Part shown: piece by piece, positions 27,515 through 38,860 of the stretch
Layout of the letters: every line of letters starts with the position of its first letter
How positions within the stretch are numbered: the first letter of the stretch is position 1
Assembly: GCF_013282625.1 (NCBI RefSeq)
Contig: NZ_CP054020.1
Location: forward strand, 372,001 to 436,000
Length of the DNA stretch: 64,000 nt
Reading direction: 5' to 3'
Source: Thiomicrorhabdus xiamenensis
Lineage (GTDB): Bacteria; Pseudomonadota; Gammaproteobacteria; Thiomicrospirales; Thiomicrospiraceae
Position numbers and translations under genes: made by a program
Notes under the pieces: model-generated
What the model saw: only the letters and a program-made list of their open reading frames with translations
What the model was told of the DNA's origin: nothing
The model's database searches: none

Positions 27515-29074
27515 TTATTTAAACTCCAGATTAAAGTTGATCTGTGCCAGTCGTTTGGCTTCAACTTTAAGGTCCATCTGACTCAGAGGGTGTTGGTCCA
27601 GCCAGTTATCGGCAAAGATCAGACAGAGGTTGGTCTCTTTCTTGATCAGCAGTTCCGGTTTGATCTGTTCCAGATCCCGTCCGCGGTGGATACGTACGGC
27701 CAGACGAAGGAGAACGGTCAGATAACGGATTTTCTGGGCTTGTTCTTTGTCAAAGTCGTCTAGTGCGGAACTGATGAATTTTCCTCTGTGGTTGAGCAGA
27801 AGTGCACTCAGAATCTGTTTTTCCTGCTGGTCAAAACCAGCCATATCCGACTGCGCGACCAGATATGCGCTGTGCTGCCGATAGCGCTTGTAACTGATGG
27901 CAATTCCACATTCGTGCAAGCGACAGGCCCAGTCCAGCAGCTGCCGGTAATTGATTTCTTCGGAATGAAGCTCCCAACAATTGTGCGCCTGCTTGAAGAG
28001 GTGACGTGCCGTTGCCGCTACGGCGTCGGCCTGTTTACTGTCGACCTTCATCCATTTTTGCATCGCCTGTACACTGACATCGCGGACATCTTCGGCATAC
28101 AGACGTCCCAGAGTATCGAATACCAGGCCTTCACGCAGTGCATTGGGTGAGACGTGCATTACGTCGATATTGAGTTCCATAAAGGTAGCGATCAGTACCG
28201 CTAGTCCGCCACTGATAACCGGGCGCCGCTCATCCTTCAGGCCGGAAATTTTCAGTTCGTCCAGCTCTCCGGATTCAATCAGAGCCTGTTTCAGTTGGAG
28301 CATGCCATCAAGCGTTATACCGCCTTCCGACCACTGGTTTTGCTCTAAAATCTGACCGATCGATTTAATGGTTCCGGATGCGCCTATGGCGTTGTCCCAC
28401 GACAAGGCGATCAGCTTGTTACGATGCGGGCGCAGCACCTGACGGCACCGGTCGATCGCTTTCTGCATCGCTTCGGCGGTAATTTTGTTATTCGCGAAAT
28501 GGGCCTGGGTAATGCTGACACAGCCCATTTCGGTACTGGTCAGGTGCTGATAGCGGTTGCGCTGGCCGATAATGTATTCAGTACTGCCGCCGCCAATGTC
28601 CATGACCAGGCGCTGCTCGTCGCTCTTAGGCAGTCCAAGGGACACGCCAAGGTAGATGAGACGCGCCTCTTCCTGGCCGGAAATAATCTGAATGCCGATT
28701 CCCAAAGCTTCACGGGCGGCATTCAGAAACTGGCGACTGTTTTTGGCGTTGCGTAGGGTGTTGGTTCCGACGGCGCGGATATTCTGGTGTGGAATGCCTT
28801 TGATGCGCTGTCCGAAACGTTCCAGGCAGGCGATGCCGCTGGCAAAGGCTTCTTCGCTCAAGTAACCGCTTTTATCCAGTCCGGAACGCAGTCGAACCAT
28901 CTCTTTGTGTTTATCGATCACCTGCATCTGTCCGTGCGTCTGACGGGCGATGATCATATGAAAACTGTTCGATCCCAGATCGATTGCAGCATACAGCGCG
29001 TTCTCTTCGCTGTCGTCAATGCCGAGGCTTTGGCTGTTGATCGCTGGGTACTGGAGAAGGGTCTCTTGATTCAT
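27515..29074 (-). CDS. ppx: Exopolyphosphatase / pppGpp phosphatase
   Basis: Removes terminal phosphate from polyphosphate, or the gamma phosphate of pppGpp. The 519-residue Ppx/GppA-family protein (E. coli Ppx 513) starts its first ASKHA domain at AAIDLGSNSFHMIIARQ. MDIGGGSTEYIIG is the second phosphate loop, then IGASGTIKSIGQ. Domain III has an HD-like helical fold (WACRLHECGIAISYKRYRQHSAY). It follows the polyphosphate kinase gene on the same strand (161-base gap), the classical ppk-ppx order, so polyphosphate turnover is the likely role. Confidence 0.92.
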   Translation of the reverse strand: MNQETLLQYPAINSQSLGIDDSEENALYAAIDLGSNSFHMIIARQTHGQMQVIDKHKEMVRLRSGLDKSGYLSEEAFASGIACLERFGQRIKGIPHQNIRAVGTNTLRNAKNSRQFLNAAREALGIGIQIISGQEEARLIYLGVSLGLPKSDEQRLVMDIGGGSTEYIIGQRNRYQHLTSTEMGCVSITQAHFANNKITAEAMQKAIDRCRQVLRPHRNKLIALSWDNAIGASGTIKSIGQILEQNQWSEGGITLDGMLQLKQALIESGELDELKISGLKDERRPVISGGLAVLIATFMELNIDVMHVSPNALREGLVFDTLGRLYAEDVRDVSVQAMQKWMKVDSKQADAVAATARHLFKQAHNCWELHSEEINYRQLLDWACRLHECGIAISYKRYRQHSAYLVAQSDMAGFDQQEKQILSALLLNHRGKFISSALDDFDKEQAQKIRYLTVLLRLAVRIHRGRDLEQIKPELLIKKETNLCLIFADNWLDQHPLSQMDLKVEAKRLAQINFNLEFK

Positions 29075-29235
29075 CGAAGTTCTCTTGAGTGTTCTTTCAG
29101 AGCGCTAGTTTACTCTGTCTGTTTTTAGGTGTGTAGTGATTTGCCCCAAAAGACGCGGTTTCCGGCCAGGTTAACCGATAAAATAAGCGGTTTTACCTAG
29201 CCAGAATTGCGGCGTTCGATTGAGGCGTGTGCGGT

Positions 29236-31359
29236 TTAGCCTTCACTGTATTTTTCGATCAGATATTGCTGGGCATTATAGGCCGGACGTCCTTCAGGGA
29301 TTGCTTGAAGATAGTTGCCGTCCGCCTGCAGCTTCCAGGCGCCGGTGTTGTCTTCCAGATAAACGCCGAGTCCTTCCGTATAAACCTGCTGGAAAAGTCG
29401 CGGATCAAGGATCGGGAAGCAGGTTTCCACTCGGGCCAGAAGGTTACGGCGCATCCAGTCGGCACTTGAGCAGAACAGTTCCGGTTTGCCGCCGGCATTT
29501 TCGAAATAGTACACGCGGTGATGTTCAAGGAAACGACCGATAATCGATGTTACGGTAATGTTTTCCGAAAGCCCCGGGACGCCCGGTCTGAGGCTACAGA
29601 TTCCGCGGACGATCAGATCGATTTCGACACCGGCCTGCGATGCTTCATACAGATTGTCGATGATTTCCTGTTCTTCGAGACCGTTCATTTTGGCGATGAT
29701 ACGAGCTGGTTTACCCTGACGGGCATTTTCCGCTTCGCGTTGAATGCGTTCCAGCATTCCGCTATGCAGGGTGAACGGCGATTGCAGTAAGACTTCGAGA
29801 TCCTTGGTCTCTCCGAGGCTGGTCAGTTGCTGGAAAACCTTGGAGGCGTCGCGGCCAATTGACTGATTAGCCGTCAGCAGCCCGAAATCCGAATAGAAAC
29901 GGGTCGTGATATGGTGGTAGTTCCCGGTTCCCATATGGGTGTAGTAGCGAATGCGGTCGTTTTCTCGGCGCACTACCAGAATCATTTTTGCATGGGTTTT
30001 GTAGCCGACGACCCCGTAAACAACATGTACGCCGGCATCTTGCAGACGGGTCGCCTGAATGATATTGGTATCTTCGTCGAAACGGGCGCGCAGTTCGACG
30101 ACAGCAGTAACCTCTTTGCCGTTCTGCGCCGCCTTCATCAGCGCTTTGATAATATCCGAATCTTCACCGGTACGGTATAGCGTCATGCGAATCGCCAGAA
30201 CGTCAGGGTCCTTGGATGCCTCTTTAAGGAAGTCGATAACCGGCGTAAAGGCCTCATAAGGGTGGTGCAACAGAATGTCTTTCTGCGCGATACGGGCAAA
30301 CAGCGAGTCGTTTTTCTTCTGGCGTGTAAACAGTTTGAAGGCCTTTTTAACGCTTTTCTTGGTCAGTTGTCGCTGGGTGTAAGGTTCGAACTGCAAATCC
30401 GGGCGGTTGACTCTATCCGGCAGAGCGCTCAGGCGGTGCAGGTTAACCGGACCATTGACCTGATAGAGCGCTTTTTCGGTCAGGTTGAAACGGTCCAGCA
30501 GGTAGTCCACCATATGCGGAGGACAGTTGTCCGCGACTTCGAGACGGATTGCGCCACCATAGTCTCGTGTAGAGAGTTCGCCACGCAGAGCGCTCATGAT
30601 ATCGTCAACCTCTTCTTCGTCGATAAAGAGGTTGGTGTTACGGGTGACACGGAACTGGTAGCAGCCGGTGACCGTCATTCCCGGGAAAAGCAGCGACACA
30701 TTCGCGTGCAGTACCGAAGAGAGGAAGACAAAGTCGTTATCACCTTCTGTCGCTTCAGGCGGAAGTTTAATAATACGTGGCAATGAACGCGGGACCGGAA
30801 CGATTGCCAGGCCGTTTGAGCGTCCGAAGGCGTCGGCACCTTCCAGAGAAACAATGAAATTCAAACTCTTGTTCAGAACACGCGGGAAAGGGTGCGACGG
30901 GTCAAGTCCAACAGCACTCAGAACCGGCTGTAAAGACTGGATAAAGTACTCTTTAATCCATGCCCGCTGGGTATCATTCCAGTGGTTGCGGCGTAGGAAA
31001 TTGATGTTTTCCTTCTGTAGCTCCGGAATCAGGATATGGTTCAGCGTACTGTACTGTTGCTCGACGATCTCGTGTGCCGTGTCGGAGAGCATGTCGATCG
31101 CTTCGTTCGGATCCATTCCGTCCGGGCGGGTCAGGGTGCCCGGCTGATTGGCCACTTCATACAGACTGGCAAGACGGACTTCGAAGAACTCGTCCATGTT
31201 ACTGCTGGAAATACACAGGTACTTAAGGCGTTCCAGTAACGGGATATCCGGGTTTTTAGCTTGGGCCAGAACCCGGCGGTTAAACTCCAATAAGCTTTGT
31301 TCGCGGTTGATATAGCGAGGGTAGTCGGTGGCAAGAGGTGGTAGATCGTTTGCGCTCAT
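29236..31359 (-). CDS. ppk: Polyphosphate kinase 1
   Basis: Reversibly polymerises the gamma phosphate of ATP into polyphosphate at the membrane. The 707-residue protein has the N-terminal domain (YINREQSLLEFNRRVLAQA), the head domain and the two PLD-like catalytic halves. The phosphorylated His is in YYTHMGTGNY; the second essential His is in LEHHRVYYF. Length is near E. coli Ppk (688). It is upstream of ppx. The start at 31359 is supported by AGGGA nine bases upstream. Confidence 0.97.
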   Translation of the reverse strand: MSANDLPPLATDYPRYINREQSLLEFNRRVLAQAKNPDIPLLERLKYLCISSSNMDEFFEVRLASLYEVANQPGTLTRPDGMDPNEAIDMLSDTAHEIVEQQYSTLNHILIPELQKENINFLRRNHWNDTQRAWIKEYFIQSLQPVLSAVGLDPSHPFPRVLNKSLNFIVSLEGADAFGRSNGLAIVPVPRSLPRIIKLPPEATEGDNDFVFLSSVLHANVSLLFPGMTVTGCYQFRVTRNTNLFIDEEEVDDIMSALRGELSTRDYGGAIRLEVADNCPPHMVDYLLDRFNLTEKALYQVNGPVNLHRLSALPDRVNRPDLQFEPYTQRQLTKKSVKKAFKLFTRQKKNDSLFARIAQKDILLHHPYEAFTPVIDFLKEASKDPDVLAIRMTLYRTGEDSDIIKALMKAAQNGKEVTAVVELRARFDEDTNIIQATRLQDAGVHVVYGVVGYKTHAKMILVVRRENDRIRYYTHMGTGNYHHITTRFYSDFGLLTANQSIGRDASKVFQQLTSLGETKDLEVLLQSPFTLHSGMLERIQREAENARQGKPARIIAKMNGLEEQEIIDNLYEASQAGVEIDLIVRGICSLRPGVPGLSENITVTSIIGRFLEHHRVYYFENAGGKPELFCSSADWMRRNLLARVETCFPILDPRLFQQVYTEGLGVYLEDNTGAWKLQADGNYLQAIPEGRPAYNAQQYLIEKYSEG

Positions 31360-31552
31360 AGAGTAGGTCCCTGAAATCCCTTATTTGAGTATTAAAAAGT
31401 GATTAATGTCGGGTGCCGTTTTTCCACTGTTTCATCTACGTAAATACGGCACAATTTTCTATTCTAGCGCACTTGAATGACGCTGTAGTCGAAGAAATTG
31501 TGAAATATTTATGGCTGAGATCAGTCGCTTTAAATGAGAAAGGTTGCGAGCT

Positions 31553-31834
31553 TTATTGCTGTTTGTCGGGATTCTGTTGTTTGGATTTTTTCTGCGCATC
31601 GCAAGAACAGGGCGGAACGGGGTCGATTCCACCGGGGTTCCCTGGATGGCAGCGGCTGATGCGTTTGATCGCCAGCCAGGAACCTTTGATGACACCATGC
31701 GTTTTGAGAGCTTCGATGGTGTAATTGGAGCAGCTTGGATAGAAGCGACAGCGTGGTCCGAGCAACGGGCTGATAAAGAGTTGATAAAAGCGGATGATGG
31801 CGTAAAACAGCCAATAAACAGGATTCCATTTCAT
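31553..31834 (-). CDS. yidD: YidD membrane-insertion efficiency factor
   Basis: A 93-residue amphipathic protein that aids YidC-dependent membrane insertion. The signature is complete: [28 protein letters not shown] ... [24 protein letters not shown] (shown in part), with the conserved cysteines. In most bacteria yidD lies between rnpA and yidC; here it is an orphan copy just downstream of a c-di-GMP gene (56-base gap). Confidence 0.93.
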
Positions 31835-31890
31835 TGTTTAGATTTGCGCTCTTTGTTGCATGGCCGCTGTCCTTTTCCGAGTCGTCAGGC

Positions 31891-34668
31891 TTAGTTTCTT
31901 AAAGCGCGGTAGGTTGCGCTCTGATAGAAATTCTCGGCATGTTCGGTCAGCCAGACTTCCAAATCGTCACTCTTAAGTGGTTTGCTGATGACAAAGCCCT
32001 GAATGTATTCACACTGCCTCTCTTCGAGGAAGTTCAGTTGTTTGAGTGTCTCCACGCCTTCCGCGACAACCCGGACGTTCAGGTTGTGCGCCAGATGCAG
32101 AATCGCTTCACTGATGCTGATATCTTCTTCATCCATTGGCAGGCCGTCGATAAAACTTTTATCGATTTTGAGAATGCTCAGAGGGAAGCGCTTCAAGTAG
32201 CTCAAAGACGAGTAGCCGGTGCCGAAATCGTCAACGGCCAGCTCGAAGCCGAGTTTTCTGAGTTCCCGTAAAAGCTTGATGTTGGTATCGGCGTTTGTCA
32301 TTACGGTACTTTCGGTCAGCTCGATTTCCAAAAGGCGGTTCGGAACGTCCGCCTCTTGCATTTTAGTCGCCAGGTTGGTGATGAAGCCTTCCGCGCTGAA
32401 CTGACTGCTGCTGATGTTGATGGCGATGGATAGATCCTGGAAAGGTGTATTGCGCCATGATTTCAGTTGCTTGACGGTCTGGTCGACGACCCAGTGACTG
32501 ATCGGCAGAATAATCCGCGTCTCTTCGGCAATCGGAATAAAAACATTCGGCGGCACCAGACCAAGTTCCGGATTTCGCCAGCGCAATAGGGCTTCAACGC
32601 CGATGATTTTACCGGTGGTGATTTCCATTTTCGGCTGATAGCACAGGTACATTTCATTGTTGCTCAGAGCGTTGCGCAGATGTTTTTCCATTTGCAGGCG
32701 TGCAGAGACGTGCTGGCTCATCTGTTCCTGATAGATGGCAAAGGTGTTTTTACCCTGGGCCTTGGCTTCATACATCGCAGTATCGGCATGACGCAACAGC
32801 GTATCGACGCTCTGACCGTTTTGCGGGTAGAAGGCGATCCCGATACTGGCGCTGACGCGAAGATCGTGATTGTCGATCTTAATGGTTCGTTCGATATTGT
32901 TGAGGATGCGCAGCGCGATAGACGAAATATTGTAAATATCCGCGTCACGCAGCATCAGAACGAACTCGTCTCCTCCGAAACGACAGATATGGGATTGATC
33001 GCCGACGCCTTTGATATTGTGTGTCAGGCGTTTGGCGATCACCTTGAGCAGTTCGTCGCCGATATTATGTCCAAGCGAGTCGTTGACCTGTTTGAAACCG
33101 TCGAGATCCATAAACAGTATGGCAAAGCTCTGATCGGGACGTTCGGCGAGCTGTTCTTCGATCTGGGATTTGAAGTAAACGCGGTTTTCCAGTTGAGTCA
33201 GGGAGTCGTAAAACGCGTATTGACGGATCTCTTTCTCGGTTTTGCGCTGATTGGTAATATCTTTGATGAACAGACTGATTTCGGGCTCGTCGTTAATCAT
33301 TAATACCGAATAGGAAATTTCAGCCAGAATTTTTTCGCCGGAGCGGGTCAGCAAGGACATCTCCAATTTGGAGGCTTTGGTGTTTTGATGCCCATGTTCC
33401 GAAGTCGTGATAAACAGATCCAGTAGCGTGCCCGAGTCGCCGAAGACGGTTTTGATGGTGTAGCGATCGAAGAGTAGCTGAACCAATGAATTCTGCAGCG
33501 CTTCCCGGCGTGTATAGCCGAATAGCTCTTCGGCATAAGGGTTCCAGACTTTGATGATGCCGAACTTGTCGGTAATGATAATAGCGTCCTGTGACGAATC
33601 CAGCAGTTCCTGAAGGCGGTTGTGCATTTCCGACAAGATGCGTGTTTTATTCAGGATGGAGAGGGTCGCAATCGATAGCAGGATAAAAATCAATGCACTT
33701 ATCAGTCCGAAAATCACGGCTTTCTGTTTGTCGATCTCTTGCCAGTCGAGATGATTGGTGATCGTAATGCGGCAGTTATGACAGCTTAGCGAGGGAACCA
33801 GTACCGTCTCGAAACGTTTCCAGTATGAAGTTGGCGGCTTTTCCATCTTTGCGGAGTTCCAGGACCAGCCTGTGTTGTAGTTGTCGGAAACACGCCTGAA
33901 AGAGACCTCGACCGCATCGTCTCGGAAAGCTTTCTGAATCGGCTTGGTCAGTGCAGAGTGGGTATTGACCAGAAAAACAATTGCGCCGGTTACCCATTCG
34001 GAGCGGTCTTCCTGATGGATGTTTGTTGGCTCTGTGGCGTACACGGGATGGGTGACTACCGCCAAGGATTTATTCGGGTGGGTCTGCTCCAGCCAGAAGA
34101 TCGCCGTTCTGTTTTCTTTGACTTGACTGTCGAAGCGTTTTTCGATTTCCGGAATGCTGAAAAGGTCTTCGGCGATATAGGATGCGTTGTCCGGTGTGAG
34201 CGGTTCAACCTGATTGATGGCCAGAAAGTAGGGGGAGGCATTTTCCTTCTCTTGAAGAAAAATGCCCTTCGGTCGAATTTTAAAGGATTCGAATCCGAGC
34301 TGTTTTTGTTTTTCTTCAAATGAAGATAACTGTGTTTTCTTGGCGTAAGTCGCCAGCCCCATCGCCTCGATATAAGGGTAATCGTTCAACAGCCCCTGTG
34401 CGAAAATGCTGATGTCGTGTGAGGACTTAATATATTGCCCTGAATACTGCTGAGCGATGGCTTCAATCAGCGAGCTGATTTTCTGTTCCTCGATCAGGTA
34501 ATTCTGGCGGATATCCTGAACTTCTTTGAGGAAAGCGGTGCGTTTCTCGCTTGCCTGATCTTCAATGTGCAGAAAGATGAATCCGATGACCCAGAAAGGC
34601 ATTAGAAGCCAGACTAATTTCTGTCTTTTGCTGAGTTTGGTCGAGAAAGGGCCGATACGGTCATTCAT
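31891..34668 (-). CDS. CHASE-PAS-GGDEF-EAL c-di-GMP turnover protein
   Basis: An inner-membrane sensor of about 925 residues. TM1 is at 12-30, then a large periplasmic region (about 40-320) with a CHASE-type fold, TM2 near 325-347, PAS (LLDSSQDAIIITDKFGIIKVWN, from about 356), GGDEF and EAL. The cyclase motif is RFGGDEF near 563, intact; the phosphodiesterase motif is GVEALLRW near 690 and ENTI-type residues follow, also looking intact. The start at 34668 overlaps the stop of the binding-protein gene by eight bases and has AAGGAG ten bases upstream; ATG 34692 is less likely. The overlap implies translational coupling to that gene, so its ligand may be what this protein senses. Confidence 0.9.
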   Translation of the reverse strand: MNDRIGPFSTKLSKRQKLVWLLMPFWVIGFIFLHIEDQASEKRTAFLKEVQDIRQNYLIEEQKISSLIEAIAQQYSGQYIKSSHDISIFAQGLLNDYPYIEAMGLATYAKKTQLSSFEEKQKQLGFESFKIRPKGIFLQEKENASPYFLAINQVEPLTPDNASYIAEDLFSIPEIEKRFDSQVKENRTAIFWLEQTHPNKSLAVVTHPVYATEPTNIHQEDRSEWVTGAIVFLVNTHSALTKPIQKAFRDDAVEVSFRRVSDNYNTGWSWNSAKMEKPPTSYWKRFETVLVPSLSCHNCRITITNHLDWQEIDKQKAVIFGLISALIFILLSIATLSILNKTRILSEMHNRLQELLDSSQDAIIITDKFGIIKVWNPYAEELFGYTRREALQNSLVQLLFDRYTIKTVFGDSGTLLDLFITTSEHGHQNTKASKLEMSLLTRSGEKILAEISYSVLMINDEPEISLFIKDITNQRKTEKEIRQYAFYDSLTQLENRVYFKSQIEEQLAERPDQSFAILFMDLDGFKQVNDSLGHNIGDELLKVIAKRLTHNIKGVGDQSHICRFGGDEFVLMLRDADIYNISSIALRILNNIERTIKIDNHDLRVSASIGIAFYPQNGQSVDTLLRHADTAMYEAKAQGKNTFAIYQEQMSQHVSARLQMEKHLRNALSNNEMYLCYQPKMEITTGKIIGVEALLRWRNPELGLVPPNVFIPIAEETRIILPISHWVVDQTVKQLKSWRNTPFQDLSIAINISSSQFSAEGFITNLATKMQEADVPNRLLEIELTESTVMTNADTNIKLLRELRKLGFELAVDDFGTGYSSLSYLKRFPLSILKIDKSFIDGLPMDEEDISISEAILHLAHNLNVRVVAEGVETLKQLNFLEERQCEYIQGFVISKPLKSDDLEVWLTEHAENFYQSATYRALRN

Positions 34669-35728
34669 CGAGTTCCGGCTCCTTGGATTCATAGGGTTGT
34701 GCCTGCATTAGGAAGGCGTTCGGCAGTGGTGCGGTCGATTCCTGAATAAGCGTCGGATTATACCAAAATACAAAACTATTGTTGGCGACGACCTCCTGTC
34801 GATCAATCGGCATACCGTCTAAAGTATGGATGGCGGAAAGGCCGGCCCAGGTGCCCTGTTCTTCAGGTTTGTTGGTCAACCCGAGCATGACATACGGCAT
34901 GACCCAGTCATTATTGGTGACGGTCAGTTTCTTGGAGTAGCGTTTGACCCAGTTTAAATTAACGTCCCTGTCCCACTCCGGGAAGGATGCGAAATTATCA
35001 AACAGAATAATGTCGGTGTTTTCATCTTCCTGTAATTGCTTGAATAGCTGACGCCAATCTTGCTGAGTTTGGGCTTGAAATGCGCTGCTCGGAATGTCGA
35101 ACTCTTTTACGATTTGGTGAAAGGCGACCACGTTTTTGGCGGCAGTTGTTCCCGGACCGGCCAGATAGGCGACATGGGTCTTACCTGGATTTATCTGGAA
35201 CAGTAATTCCAGTAGTTGGCGGACCGGTGCGACTTCCAGCATGCCGGTGGTATTACTGTAAGGCAGGCTGTAATTGATGCCGCTGTTATTGATGCCGCAG
35301 AATATAAAAGGCAGTTCAGAACCGTTGAAATAGGGGGCGAGTACATACTCGACTGCATTGTCGTCGGACACAATGACCAAGTCGGGTTGTGTCTGTTCAA
35401 TAAATTGTTTTGCTTTTAGGCCCGAGGCAGTAAGTTGCGACTCCGTATTCAGCTTCTTACTATCCATATAAAAGGTCTGTATTTCGCAATGCTTGCGCAG
35501 TGTACTGAATAAGGCGGATTCAAGCCGATCCTGCCATTCATAGCCGGGCGCATAGGACGCGATGTAGGTACATTTTGGCAGTTTGACCTTATCCATTTTG
35601 TCTACAGTTTTTTGAACCGTTGGCCCAGGAGAAGACCCTGCAAAAGAGGGGGGAGGAGGAAGTGCGAATACCGTCAGAGAGATGAAAGCCAGGAGTAGCA
35701 CTGTTCGGTTTAAGAATGTGTTTTGCAT
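34661..35728 (-). CDS. Periplasmic ABC-type substrate-binding-like protein
   Basis: A 355-residue secreted protein with a signal peptide (MQNTFLNRTVLLLAFISLTVFA) and a type-I periplasmic binding fold like the ABC_sub_bind family (YIASYAPGYEWQDRLESAL; PDLVIVSDDNAVEYVL; FIFCGINNSGINY; NPGKTHVAYLAGPG). No ABC permease or ATPase gene is adjacent, so it is probably a sensor subunit rather than a transporter. It begins at ATG 35728; a GTG at 35755 would add nine residues. It overlaps the c-di-GMP gene by eight bases and is read first. Confidence 0.82.
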   Translation of the reverse strand: MQNTFLNRTVLLLAFISLTVFALPPPPSFAGSSPGPTVQKTVDKMDKVKLPKCTYIASYAPGYEWQDRLESALFSTLRKHCEIQTFYMDSKKLNTESQLTASGLKAKQFIEQTQPDLVIVSDDNAVEYVLAPYFNGSELPFIFCGINNSGINYSLPYSNTTGMLEVAPVRQLLELLFQINPGKTHVAYLAGPGTTAAKNVVAFHQIVKEFDIPSSAFQAQTQQDWRQLFKQLQEDENTDIILFDNFASFPEWDRDVNLNWVKRYSKKLTVTNNDWVMPYVMLGLTNKPEEQGTWAGLSAIHTLDGMPIDRQEVVANNSFVFWYNPTLIQESTAPLPNAFLMQAQPYESKEPELDE

Positions 35729-36118
35729 GGAAGTAAACCTGGAATAGGGAGCCACTTTAAGCTTTCGGAAGACGTTGGTTAAAGGAAAGCACGGTTTCTT
35801 AACGGAGCCTTTCGAGGGCTGTCGTCAAAGGGAACCGGCTATTTTTTATCAAAAGCGTACAAATGCATTAAGATAATTGTCTTGCAGTATCACGCCTTTA
35901 GAAAAAATCTTACAATGTTTAGACTTATAAACCAATTCAAAAGTGTGTATTCGATTGATTTTGAGAGACACTTATTTGATTTTAACCCGTTTAAATTGCG
36001 CACTCTTACAGAGTGACGGCGATTAATCGTTTAAACTGTTGGATAATTTAATCCCCGCTATCGCTGCACGGTCATAGTGATAGCCAAGCCCAAACCAAAG
36101 TAACAAGGATTTCTCTGT
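35729..36118. other. 390-base divergent intergenic region
   Basis: AT-rich and without a gene. It must carry promoters for the binding-protein/c-di-GMP unit (leftward) and the dihydroorotase gene (rightward). A hairpin CACTCT-TAC-AGAGTG is at 36001-36015 on the dihydroorotase side. No -35/-10 pair stands out. Confidence 0.5.
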
Positions 36119-37465
36119 ATGCCAGGCACCCGCAACGCTTTTTTAATCTCGCAAGCCACTATTGTTAACGAAGGACAGCAATCGGTTGCTGATGTTCTTA
36201 TCGAAAACGGGCGTATTGCCTGCATAGGTAACAATCTGAGCGCACCGGAGGGTGTCGAGGTCATCGACGCGAAGGGCTTGCATCTGCTTCCGGGATTTAT
36301 TGACGATCAGGTGCATTTTCGCGAGCCGGGCCTGACCAGTAAGGCGGATATTGAATCAGAATCCAAAGCGGCAGTAGCAGGCGGAACGACAACCTTCATG
36401 GAAATGCCGAACGTCAAGCCGCCGACGGTGACCATTGAACGCCTTGAAGAAAAATATGCACTGGGTGCGAGTAAATCCTGGGCCAACTACTCTTTTTATT
36501 TCGGGGCGACCAATGACAACCTGCAGGAGCTGAAGAAAGTTAACCCGCGCAACGTTTGCGGTGTGAAAGTCTTTATGGGATCTTCGACCGGAAATATGTT
36601 GGTCGACGAAGAGCAGGCGCTGCGCGATATTTTTACGCACAGTCCGACGCTGATTGCGACCCACTGTGAAGATACGCCTATGATTAAGGCGAATGAGGAA
36701 AAATGGCTGGAGAAGTTCGGCGAAGACATTCCGGCTGCCGAGCATCCGAATATCCGCAGTCGCGAAGCCTGTTATAAATCTTCTTCGATGGCGGTGAAGC
36801 TGGCTAAAGAGACCGGTGCGCGTCTGCATATCCTGCATATTACGACGGCGGATGAGCTGGAACTGTTTGAACCGGGGCCGGTTGCAGGCAAGAAAATTAC
36901 CGCTGAAGCTTGTACCCACCATTTGTGGTTCAGCGAAGAAGACTATGCGACAAAAGGACATTACATTAAATGCAATCCGGCGATTAAGACGCAGTCGGAT
37001 CGCGATGCCATTCGTCAGGCTCTGATTGAAGGGCGTATTGATGTCGTTGCAACCGACCACGCGCCTCACCTTGAAGAGGAAAAGCATAACCCGTACTTTT
37101 CTGCGCCGGCCGGTTTGCCTCAGGTACAGCAATCATTGAGTGTTCTTCTGGATTTGGTCAAACAAGGCGTCTTTACGCTTGAGCAGGTAGTCGAAAAAAT
37201 GGCGCATAACGTGGCCACCTTATACGAAATCGAAGAGCGCGGTTATATTCGCGAAGGCTATTGGGCGGACCTGGTACTGGTGGATCTCAATAAACCACAT
37301 ACTGACCTTAAGGACGAAGTGTTGTACAAGTGCGGCTGGTCGCCTTGGGAAGGGCATGAGTTTTCGTCCAGTGTGATCGGAACTTTTGTTTCCGGCGAGT
37401 TGAAATACTATCAGGGCGAATTTGCCGACTTTACTCCGGGACAGCGTTTGCTGTTTAACCGATAA
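36119..37465 (+). CDS. pyrC: Dihydroorotase, class-I-like
   Basis: Closes carbamoyl aspartate to dihydroorotate in pyrimidine synthesis. The 448-residue amidohydrolase has the FREPG motif, bridging-lysine segment GVKVFMGSSTG, metal-site His in ATHCEDT and HILHITT, and catalytic Asp in VATDHAPH. The first metal motif reads DDQVHFREPG, so the usual HxH is QxH. I believe a dihydroorotase subgroup has this Gln, but I cannot check it here. It is a long type distinct from the 348-residue E. coli PyrC. The next gene follows by about 27 bases. Confidence 0.88.
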   Translation: MPGTRNAFLISQATIVNEGQQSVADVLIENGRIACIGNNLSAPEGVEVIDAKGLHLLPGFIDDQVHFREPGLTSKADIESESKAAVAGGTTTFMEMPNVKPPTVTIERLEEKYALGASKSWANYSFYFGATNDNLQELKKVNPRNVCGVKVFMGSSTGNMLVDEEQALRDIFTHSPTLIATHCEDTPMIKANEEKWLEKFGEDIPAAEHPNIRSREACYKSSSMAVKLAKETGARLHILHITTADELELFEPGPVAGKKITAEACTHHLWFSEEDYATKGHYIKCNPAIKTQSDRDAIRQALIEGRIDVVATDHAPHLEEEKHNPYFSAPAGLPQVQQSLSVLLDLVKQGVFTLEQVVEKMAHNVATLYEIEERGYIREGYWADLVLVDLNKPHTDLKDEVLYKCGWSPWEGHEFSSSVIGTFVSGELKYYQGEFADFTPGQRLLFNR

Positions 37466-37492
37466 ACCGCGTTTAATGAGGAGATGAATACG

Positions 37493-38860
37493 ATGATGCA
37501 ATCCATTAATCCGGCCAACGGGGAATTGTTAGCGGAATTCGAAACATGGGATGACGAAACCCTGGATTATGTCGTGACTCAAGCCGGCTATATGTTCGGC
37601 GACTGGGGCAAGCTGACACCAATCGAAGATCGTTGTGCTCTGATGAAGCGAGTTGCGGATGTTCTGCGCGATGATGTCGATCTGCTGGCCGAGTTGATTA
37701 CTCTGGAAATGGGGAAATCCTACGCAGAGGCAAAAGCGGAAGTTGAAAAGAGTGCCTGGGTGTGCGAATACTACGCTGAAAAAGGGCCGCAATTTCTGGC
37801 CGACGAGCCGGTTGAAACCGACGCATCGAAAAGTTATGTCGCTTATTTGCCTCTGGGCGTTGTTCTGGCGGTTATGCCGTGGAATTTCCCTTTCTGGCAG
37901 GTATTCCGTTTTGCGGCACCAGCGCTGATTGCCGGTAATATCGGCTTGTTGAAACATGCGTCGAATGTTCCGCAATGCGCCTTGGCGATTGAAGAAGTTT
38001 TCCGTAAAGCGGGTTTCCCCGATCACATCTTTTCGACACTGATGATCGGTTCAGACAAGGTTGAAGCTGTGATTCGTCACCCGGCCGTCAAAGCGGTAAC
38101 CCTGACCGGTTCCGAGCCTGCGGGGCGTAAGGTTGCGGCGATTGCCGGTTCGGAACTGAAAAAGACCGTGCTGGAGCTGGGTGGTTCCGATGCCTTTATC
38201 GTTCTGGATGACGTCAGTATGAATACGGTAGTCGAAAATGCCGTTAAAGGACGTTTTATCAATATGGGTCAGAGCTGTATTGCTTCTAAACGTTTTATTG
38301 TCGATCAAATGCAGGCCGACAAGTTTACTCAGCAGTTTAAAGAAGCGATCGAGTCGCATTTCGTCGCCGGAGATCCAATGGACGAAAGCACGACTCTGGC
38401 GCCAATGGCGCGTCAGGATTTGCTGGACGAGTTGCACGATCAGGTCATGCGTTCGGTCGAGATGGGGGCGACGCTGGTGTGCGGCGGTTATCAGTTGGAT
38501 CGTCCGGGCTGTTACTACGCGCCGACTATTCTTGCCGATGTTAACAGCAGTATGCCTGCCTGGAACGAGGAGTTTTTCGGTCCGGTGGCAATTATTATCA
38601 AATCAACCGAGCCGGCGCACGCTTTAGGTATTGCCAATTCGGTCGACTTTGGGCTGGGTGGTTCTATCTGGACGTCGGATATGGCGACCGCGGAAACCAT
38701 GGCACGTGGAATGGAGTCCGGGGCAACGTTTGTTAACAGTATTACTTTCTCGGATCCGCGTATGCCGTTCGGCGGCGTGAAAAATTCCGGTTACGGTCGT
38801 GAGCTCTCGGTGCAGGGGATTCGCGAATTTACCAACGTGAAGTCGATCTGGATTAAATAA
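37493..38860 (+). CDS. Aldehyde dehydrogenase, succinate-semialdehyde type (Sad/YneI-like)
   Basis: NAD(P)-dependent oxidation of an aldehyde, probably succinate semialdehyde. The 455-residue protein resembles E. coli Sad (YneI): SINPANGEL at the start, MPWNFPFWQVFRFAAPAL, cofactor motif LTGSEPAGRKVA, catalytic Glu in VLELGGSDAF and catalytic Cys in MGQSCIASKRF. ATG 37493 has AGGAG nine bases upstream; ATG 37484 directly abuts it. It probably shares a transcript with the dihydroorotase gene; a functional link is not evident. Substrate is inferred from family resemblance. Confidence 0.88.
   Translation: MMQSINPANGELLAEFETWDDETLDYVVTQAGYMFGDWGKLTPIEDRCALMKRVADVLRDDVDLLAELITLEMGKSYAEAKAEVEKSAWVCEYYAEKGPQFLADEPVETDASKSYVAYLPLGVVLAVMPWNFPFWQVFRFAAPALIAGNIGLLKHASNVPQCALAIEEVFRKAGFPDHIFSTLMIGSDKVEAVIRHPAVKAVTLTGSEPAGRKVAAIAGSELKKTVLELGGSDAFIVLDDVSMNTVVENAVKGRFINMGQSCIASKRFIVDQMQADKFTQQFKEAIESHFVAGDPMDESTTLAPMARQDLLDELHDQVMRSVEMGATLVCGGYQLDRPGCYYAPTILADVNSSMPAWNEEFFGPVAIIIKSTEPAHALGIANSVDFGLGGSIWTSDMATAETMARGMESGATFVNSITFSDPRMPFGGVKNSGYGRELSVQGIREFTNVKSIWIK

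Follow-up and report, generated by a model that had tools for sequence, protein, structure and literature searches.

A periplasmic binding protein encoded beside CHASE receptors: a probable ligand-sensing co-receptor in Thiomicrorhabdus and its relatives

In a 64,000-nucleotide stretch of the Thiomicrorhabdus xiamenensis genome (contig NZ_CP054020.1, positions 372,001 to 436,000; hereafter the window), two genes on the reverse strand encode a periplasmic binding protein (SBP) of 355 residues (34661..35728) and a receptor of 925 residues (31891..34668) with the architecture TM-CHASE-TM-PAS-GGDEF-EAL, where TM stands for a transmembrane helix. We propose that the SBP is a ligand-sensing co-receptor of a divergent group of CHASE receptors, working in the manner of NspS-MbaA and ScrB-ScrC, and from sequence comparison we consider this the probable explanation of the pair. 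The two genes overlap and the enzymatic motifs of the receptor are intact. SBPs of this type are paired with CHASE receptors in 20 families, different output modules follow the same sensing pair, and the SBP and the periplasmic domain of the receptor have diverged together.

Pairing of the binding protein with CHASE receptors

At E 0.001 or better, 20 of the 62 family genomes searched contained a match to the SBP; a wider SBP profile at E 1e-25 gave 17 of the 62. A class sample gave matches in 43 of 369 genomes (E 1e-10) and a phylum sample in 38 of 398 (E 1e-25), the last two counts taking in distant relatives and the window's own genome. Neighbourhoods were fetched for the strong matches and many weak ones, and were scored with in-house profiles. 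A score of at least 300 defined a close homologue; next below stood two broken copies, followed by scores of 172 or less. There were 66 close homologues besides that of the window, of which four were dropped because their contig ended within 300 bases downstream. In 53 of the remaining 62, all with at least 300 bases of downstream sequence, the next gene encodes a CHASE receptor. The conserved adjacency that the original prediction had proposed to look for is therefore present; the 53 pairs are spread over 49 genomes and, with the window included, over 20 families. The gene order recurs in this way in relatives, and thus the overlapping pair is not a chance arrangement.

What defines the partner? 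The CHASE receptors that follow the SBP carry a GGDEF-EAL output in 35 cases and a histidine kinase in 18. When 12 of the 18 kinases were checked with Pfam, CHASE exceeded the cut-off in all 12, the other six having been assigned by in-house profiles. Since 18 of the 53 partners are histidine kinases, it is CHASE, and not the turnover of cyclic di-GMP (c-di-GMP), that defines the partner. The suggestion that the pair is a sensor controlling c-di-GMP would apply to the receptor of the window, with its GGDEF-EAL output, and does not extend to the pairing as such. The SBP tree requires at least five changes of output type, of which well-supported branches force only one or two. Measured on the longest frames, the spacing of the two genes lies between -14 and +19 bases in 45 of the 53 pairs, and the commonest arrangement is a 4-base overlap (20 of 53).

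If the two genes were operon neighbours without any functional link, conservation of a whole block would be enough to keep them together. This is indeed the situation in the window's genus, where most paired genomes retain the block pyrC - SBP - receptor - yidD - ppk, and adjacency alone is weak evidence there because the whole block is conserved. Other genera and families change the flanking genes yet keep the pair, and in a second genus (L036-L039) it is flanked by quite different genes; we therefore regard a link by position only as very improbable. The same comparison settles the role of yidD (31553..31834, reverse strand). It does trail the pair, as had been noted, and it belongs to the gene order of the genus and not to the pair.

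The SBP might also serve an ATP-binding cassette (ABC) transporter encoded elsewhere and stand beside the receptor through co-regulation of uptake and signalling. The family that it resembles, PF04392, takes its name from ABC transport proteins, an ABC-type SBP is among the best solved matches of the SBP profile, and the copies of one SBP clade lie apart from CHASE genes. The scan covered 178 neighbours of the relatives' SBPs, namely 116 of the 117 first and 62 of the 70 second ones. An ABC-ATPase motif was found in none of the 116 first and one of the 62 second neighbours, and no ABC family was present among the 25 commonest of 137 Pfam families for the first neighbours or the 25 commonest of 53 for the second. 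At least five membrane helices were predicted in 15 first and nine second neighbours. These were named as mechanosensitive channels, TerC/DUF475, AI-2E transporters, a sulfate permease, TauE, bile-acid symporters, a weak DoxX match, ammonium transporters, FtsK, IspA and a TLC carrier (for TerC, AI-2E, FtsK and IspA, family counts were matched to proteins collectively by size and place). One ABC exporter (L126) adjoins SBPs without a CHASE partner. One UPF0014 protein (L115), which we take to be a FetB-like, ABC-type permease, is a second neighbour on the opposite strand. ABC-related neighbours thus amount to two in 178, a count that covers the neighbourhoods and involved no search for a remote permease, against a CHASE receptor beside 53 of 62 SBPs. 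ABC permeases are not regular neighbours of this SBP, and in the window itself no ABC permease or ATPase was seen within 27515-38860 (genes named by eye), in line with what had been stated from the sequence. The linkage and the scarcity of ABC genes together support the earlier view of the SBP as the probable partner of the CHASE region. Service to a distant transporter also does not account for the coupling of SBP divergence to a single receptor domain, described below, and we judge it improbable.

Shared divergence and receptors without the binding protein

The SBP begins with a hydrophobic, signal-like stretch, probably a signal peptide of about 30 codons (35639..35728, reverse strand, with a predicted cleavage site). 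Its score against PF04392, 25.5 bits, is just under the cut-off of 25.9, while three homologues reach 27.2, 30.9 and 69 bits. A profile of 17 aligned SBP proteins had its best PDB matches in 3lft, 3lkv and 6hni, all of SBP type. Residues Y59, W65, D122, D123, E165, W225 and E290 are invariant in 46 aligned sequences, and these aromatic and acidic positions may be candidates for the lining of a ligand site. Some distant SBP relatives carry a GGDEF, GGDEF-EAL or kinase module on the same polypeptide; PF04392 was detected in six of seven tested (E 0.001), two of the six scoring under the family cut-off. The fused proteins suggest that this fold also serves as a sensor in cis.

In the receptor, CHASE, PAS, GGDEF and EAL all exceed their Pfam cut-offs. 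Its periplasmic region (residues 37-317; 33718..34560) is flanked by two hydrophobic helices, an arrangement found in 54 of 54 receptors by hydropathy only. The CHASE domain (residues 89-263; 33880..34404) scores 53.2 bits against a PF03924 cut-off of 25. A profile of the receptor family matches the CHASE structures 3t4j (histidine kinase 4, E 4.4e-9) and 6k62 (E 2e-8), the latter presumably PcrK. PAS (residues 351-471; 33256..33618), GGDEF (residues 485-641; 32746..33216) and EAL (residues 663-897; 31978..32682) follow, all on the reverse strand. The GGDEF domain carries the letters RFGGDEF, and no RxxD site was found ahead of it in the window's receptor sequence. The EAL domain has E692 (the glutamate of the EAL letters), N751, E783, D813/D814, K834, E870, E873 and Q890, which, like the GGDEF letters, we take to be the catalytic residues. 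All are invariant across 21 aligned receptors, so that by motif both enzymes are intact, as the original prediction had read them. In the second genus the EAL motif reads EVL in L036, L037 and L039 and EIL in L038.

Divergence of the SBP follows the periplasmic domain of the receptor and not its cytoplasmic part. Across 54 pairs the evolutionary distances of SBP and periplasmic domain correlated with r 0.78 (best of 999 label permutations, 0.19), a mirror-tree correlation that derives in part from the common descent of neighbouring genes. In the 36 pairs with a GGDEF-EAL receptor, the SBP correlated with the periplasmic part at 0.84 and with the cytoplasmic part at 0.54, and the periplasmic part with its own cytoplasmic part at 0.55. 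The partial correlations in this set were 0.78 for the periplasmic and 0.17 for the cytoplasmic part; with the window's family left out (n=19) they were 0.71 and -0.12. Many of these distances are large, the medians being 1.7 to 4.3 changes per site for sets that reach outside the family, and saturation adds noise. Within the window's family (n=17) the contrast was weaker (partial r 0.73 versus 0.56). The paired receptors also stand apart among CHASE proteins. In a Pfam CHASE search of the class sample, a ranking independent of our in-house periplasmic profile, the 85 strongest matches adjoin no SBP match, and a paired receptor first appears at rank 86 (111 bits). Because all 85 strongest matches are unpaired, CHASE domains from paired receptors count as weak representatives of the Pfam family.

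The most substantial competing explanation is that CHASE binds the ligand itself, while the SBP merely delivers, concentrates or withholds it and forms no part of the sensing surface. The CHASE fold is retained, and a nearly invariant aspartate, D168 in the window, lies inside the block that aligns with 3t4j and 6k62; PcrK is reported, in the available excerpts of the literature, to perceive isopentenyladenine. In several lineages, detailed below, the receptor is found without an SBP and its constraint is undiminished. Taken alone, direct binding by CHASE predicts neither that the SBP should diverge with the periplasmic domain nor that paired CHASE domains should be weak members of their family, and we hold it to be unlikely, though the least so of the alternatives.

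A number of observations weigh against the SBP being a dedicated co-receptor. Inside the window's family it tracks the cytoplasmic part nearly as well as the periplasmic part (r 0.89 versus 0.93). Among the nine of the 62 close homologues that are not followed by a CHASE receptor, one is a tandem copy upstream of a pair (L108), and the other eight, from two genomes, form one clade on the SBP tree. Distant SBP relatives in L042 and L130 precede GGDEF-EAL proteins that have no CHASE match. In six genomes of the family the receptor occupies the same locus but the SBP is absent, both there and, at E 1e-25, from the rest of the genome. The ratio of periplasmic to GGDEF-EAL branch length is 3.05 in receptors without the SBP and 3.44 in those with it. 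Structure models built from two-row alignments reached a predicted local distance difference test (pLDDT) value of 43.2 for the SBP and 47.0 for the first 345 residues of the receptor, too low for use. In a reverse search, the periplasmic regions of paired receptors were made into a profile and run against the same class sample; this gave 33 places at 149 bits or more, followed by a gap to 125. The SBP is adjacent at 28 of them (one a fragment at a contig end, one broken by a frameshift), a proportion flattered by the fact that 23 of the 28 were rows of the search profile. It is missing at four (L210-L213), and one place lies at a contig start, with an SBP ending another contig of the same genome. 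Ten places had not contributed to the profile: the SBP adjoins five of these, one being a near-copy of the window, and is absent from four, the tenth being the place at the contig start.

The receptors without an SBP in the family form two clades, in assemblies that are 79-100% complete. Faster, relaxed evolution of the periplasmic domain after loss of the SBP had been predicted, and the ratios of 3.05 and 3.44 show no such speed-up. Because the domain does not evolve faster, the receptor appears to be useful without the SBP, perhaps through direct ligand binding or another partner; these lineages are natural knock-outs. No convincing SBP remnant was found near the lone receptors L052-L057; the best candidate, a 26% stretch in L055 (E 0.017), lies within the receptor gene. 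Downstream of ligA, L212 and L213 have the receptor but no SBP, and in L100, L101, L103 and L105 a DNA ligase gene is followed by the whole pair. Either the SBP was lost in the former two or it was gained in the latter four.

Some further variants of these genes were observed. In L058 (5545-6063) a deletion has brought the start of the SBP gene into one frame with the last part of the EAL domain of the receptor, leaving 172 residues as a natural remnant of both genes. The SBP clade without CHASE neighbours has multiplied (L121-L126, with two and six copies in genomes G141 and G343), and one of its copies adjoins a dCache chemoreceptor gene. In L042 (5787-9325) a distant PF04392 binding protein gene has a 4-base overlap with that of a PAS-GGDEF-EAL protein lacking a CHASE match, a further kind of pair of SBP and c-di-GMP protein. 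Other distant relatives of the SBP (scores of about 120-165; L129, L132, L133, L186 and L190) adjoin the gene of a membrane protein with cNMP-binding (cyclic nucleotide) and Na+/sulfate-citrate symporter domains, found in five of five tested, and this is possibly another SBP-linked sensing or transport unit.

Proposed mechanism and comparison with known systems

How might the pair work? The SBP would be secreted into the periplasm and bind a small molecule, and the loaded protein would then dock on a dimer of the receptor's periplasmic CHASE domains. Loading would alter the dimer, and the signal would pass through the second helix and the PAS domain and shift the balance between cyclase (GGDEF) and phosphodiesterase (EAL), both of which we infer to be active. 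More broadly, and as a tentative idea that we rate below even, there may be a widespread class of two-part receptors in which divergent CHASE is the docking platform, a dedicated SBP recognizes the ligand, and the output is freely swapped between c-di-GMP turnover and phosphorelay. Since different output modules are joined to one sensing pair, such a principle of modular signalling is open to test.

NspS, presumably a PotD-like protein, and MbaA form a polyamine sensor in Vibrio cholerae. PotD was absent among the 17 PDB matches of the SBP profile up to E 1, NspS itself not having been compared, so the SBP is likened to NspS in the way it would work and not as a relative. According to the available excerpts of one paper, the NspS gene lies directly upstream of that of MbaA, whose periplasmic domain takes the signal, and bound NspS suppresses the phosphodiesterase (PMC8079147). 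The order of an SBP gene directly upstream of an inner-membrane GGDEF-EAL gene is the same here. EVL, as seen in the second genus, is given as an EAL variant of MbaA in the part of the literature available. In Vibrio parahaemolyticus, the periplasmic binding protein ScrB and the GGDEF-EAL protein ScrC are encoded in one operon and ScrB triggers the phosphodiesterase, as far as the excerpted text describes it (PMC11315295). Like ScrB-ScrC, the SBP is encoded together with a GGDEF-EAL protein. The scr operon also has an aminotransferase, ScrA, whereas none was present among the 25 commonest families of either list of neighbours here. The features that the window has in common with both systems are an SBP gene adjoining a GGDEF-EAL gene, two helices around the periplasmic domain (by hydropathy only), and a locus with no dedicated ABC transporter. 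Unlike MbaA, the partner of a window-type SBP can be a kinase.

In LuxP-LuxQ, TorT-TorS and XylFII-LytS, a separate type I SBP acts on the periplasmic part of a kinase. The 18 kinase partners found here resemble these systems, a likeness of description and not of sequence; XylFII-LytS and the trimethylamine N-oxide receptor appear as reference titles in one source (PMC9602780). A soluble periplasmic partner of a cyclase, as proposed here, is also found in YfiR-YfiN. CHASE8 is a family distinct from CHASE, and YfiR is not known to be an SBP. In the available text on YfiBNR, the soluble periplasmic protein represses the cyclase, and a Pantoea relative carries CHASE8 (PMC8294551).

By profile match to 3t4j and 6k62, the receptor shares its sensor domain with the CHASE receptors AHK4 and PcrK. 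These are described as cytokinin receptors in sources whose available parts mention no SBP, and an excerpted review proposes that a periplasmic molecule of unstated identity may mediate the opening of the PcrK pocket. If the broader class of two-part receptors exists, a periplasmic partner of this type would be a model for that molecule. What CHASE domains sense was called still unknown in the available part of a 2021 paper (PMC8294551), and the soluble binding protein linked here to a CHASE receptor is a direct handle on the ligand. The principle of an SBP acting on a GGDEF-EAL receptor is already known. The SBP-CHASE pair was not found described in the titles and abstract beginnings of the open-licence papers that our searches listed, nor in the available parts of PMC12051071, PMC1592074, PMC11315295 and PMC8294551. 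As far as these searches show, what is new is which families are partnered, their link to CHASE, how broadly the pairing occurs and the fact that outputs are exchanged behind the same sensing pair.

The overlap and the surrounding genes

The SBP frame runs from an ATG at 35728 to a stop at 34661, and that of the receptor from an ATG at 34668 to a stop at 31891, both on the reverse strand. The SBP stop and the receptor start thus share eight bases (ATGAATGA, 34661..34668), the overlap reported originally, given the start at 34668; with the first in-frame ATG, at 34692, it would be 32 bases. A Shine-Dalgarno-like AAGGAG (34679..34684, reverse strand) within the end of the SBP gene lies ten bases ahead of the ATG at 34668 and downstream of that at 34692. 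Because it precedes only 34668, we favour this start. Scans for sigma-70 promoters and terminators gave fewer matches than the shuffle means, so that these matches carry no information.

By eye, the neighbours in the window are yidD, ppk and ppx on one side and pyrC and an aldehyde dehydrogenase (ALDH) gene on the other. The YidD and PP_kinase families were confirmed by Pfam on the copies of the nearest relative. Among named relatives the nearest is Thiomicrorhabdus sp. 6S3-12, whose SBP is 91% identical. In L032 the receptor and ppk frames are both broken, perhaps by sequencing error. A decarboxylase family among the second neighbours (five of 62) was considered as a hint of a polyamine ligand; in L036-L039 it is lysA, diaminopimelate decarboxylase, and gives no such hint. 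The window lacks a 399-residue protein (gap between 37465 and 37484) that many relatives encode between pyrC, or its place, and the ALDH gene (for example L026, 3575-4774). By eye this protein is EAL-like with an HDOD domain, and the HDOD family occurs in three of the 116 scanned first neighbours of relatives.

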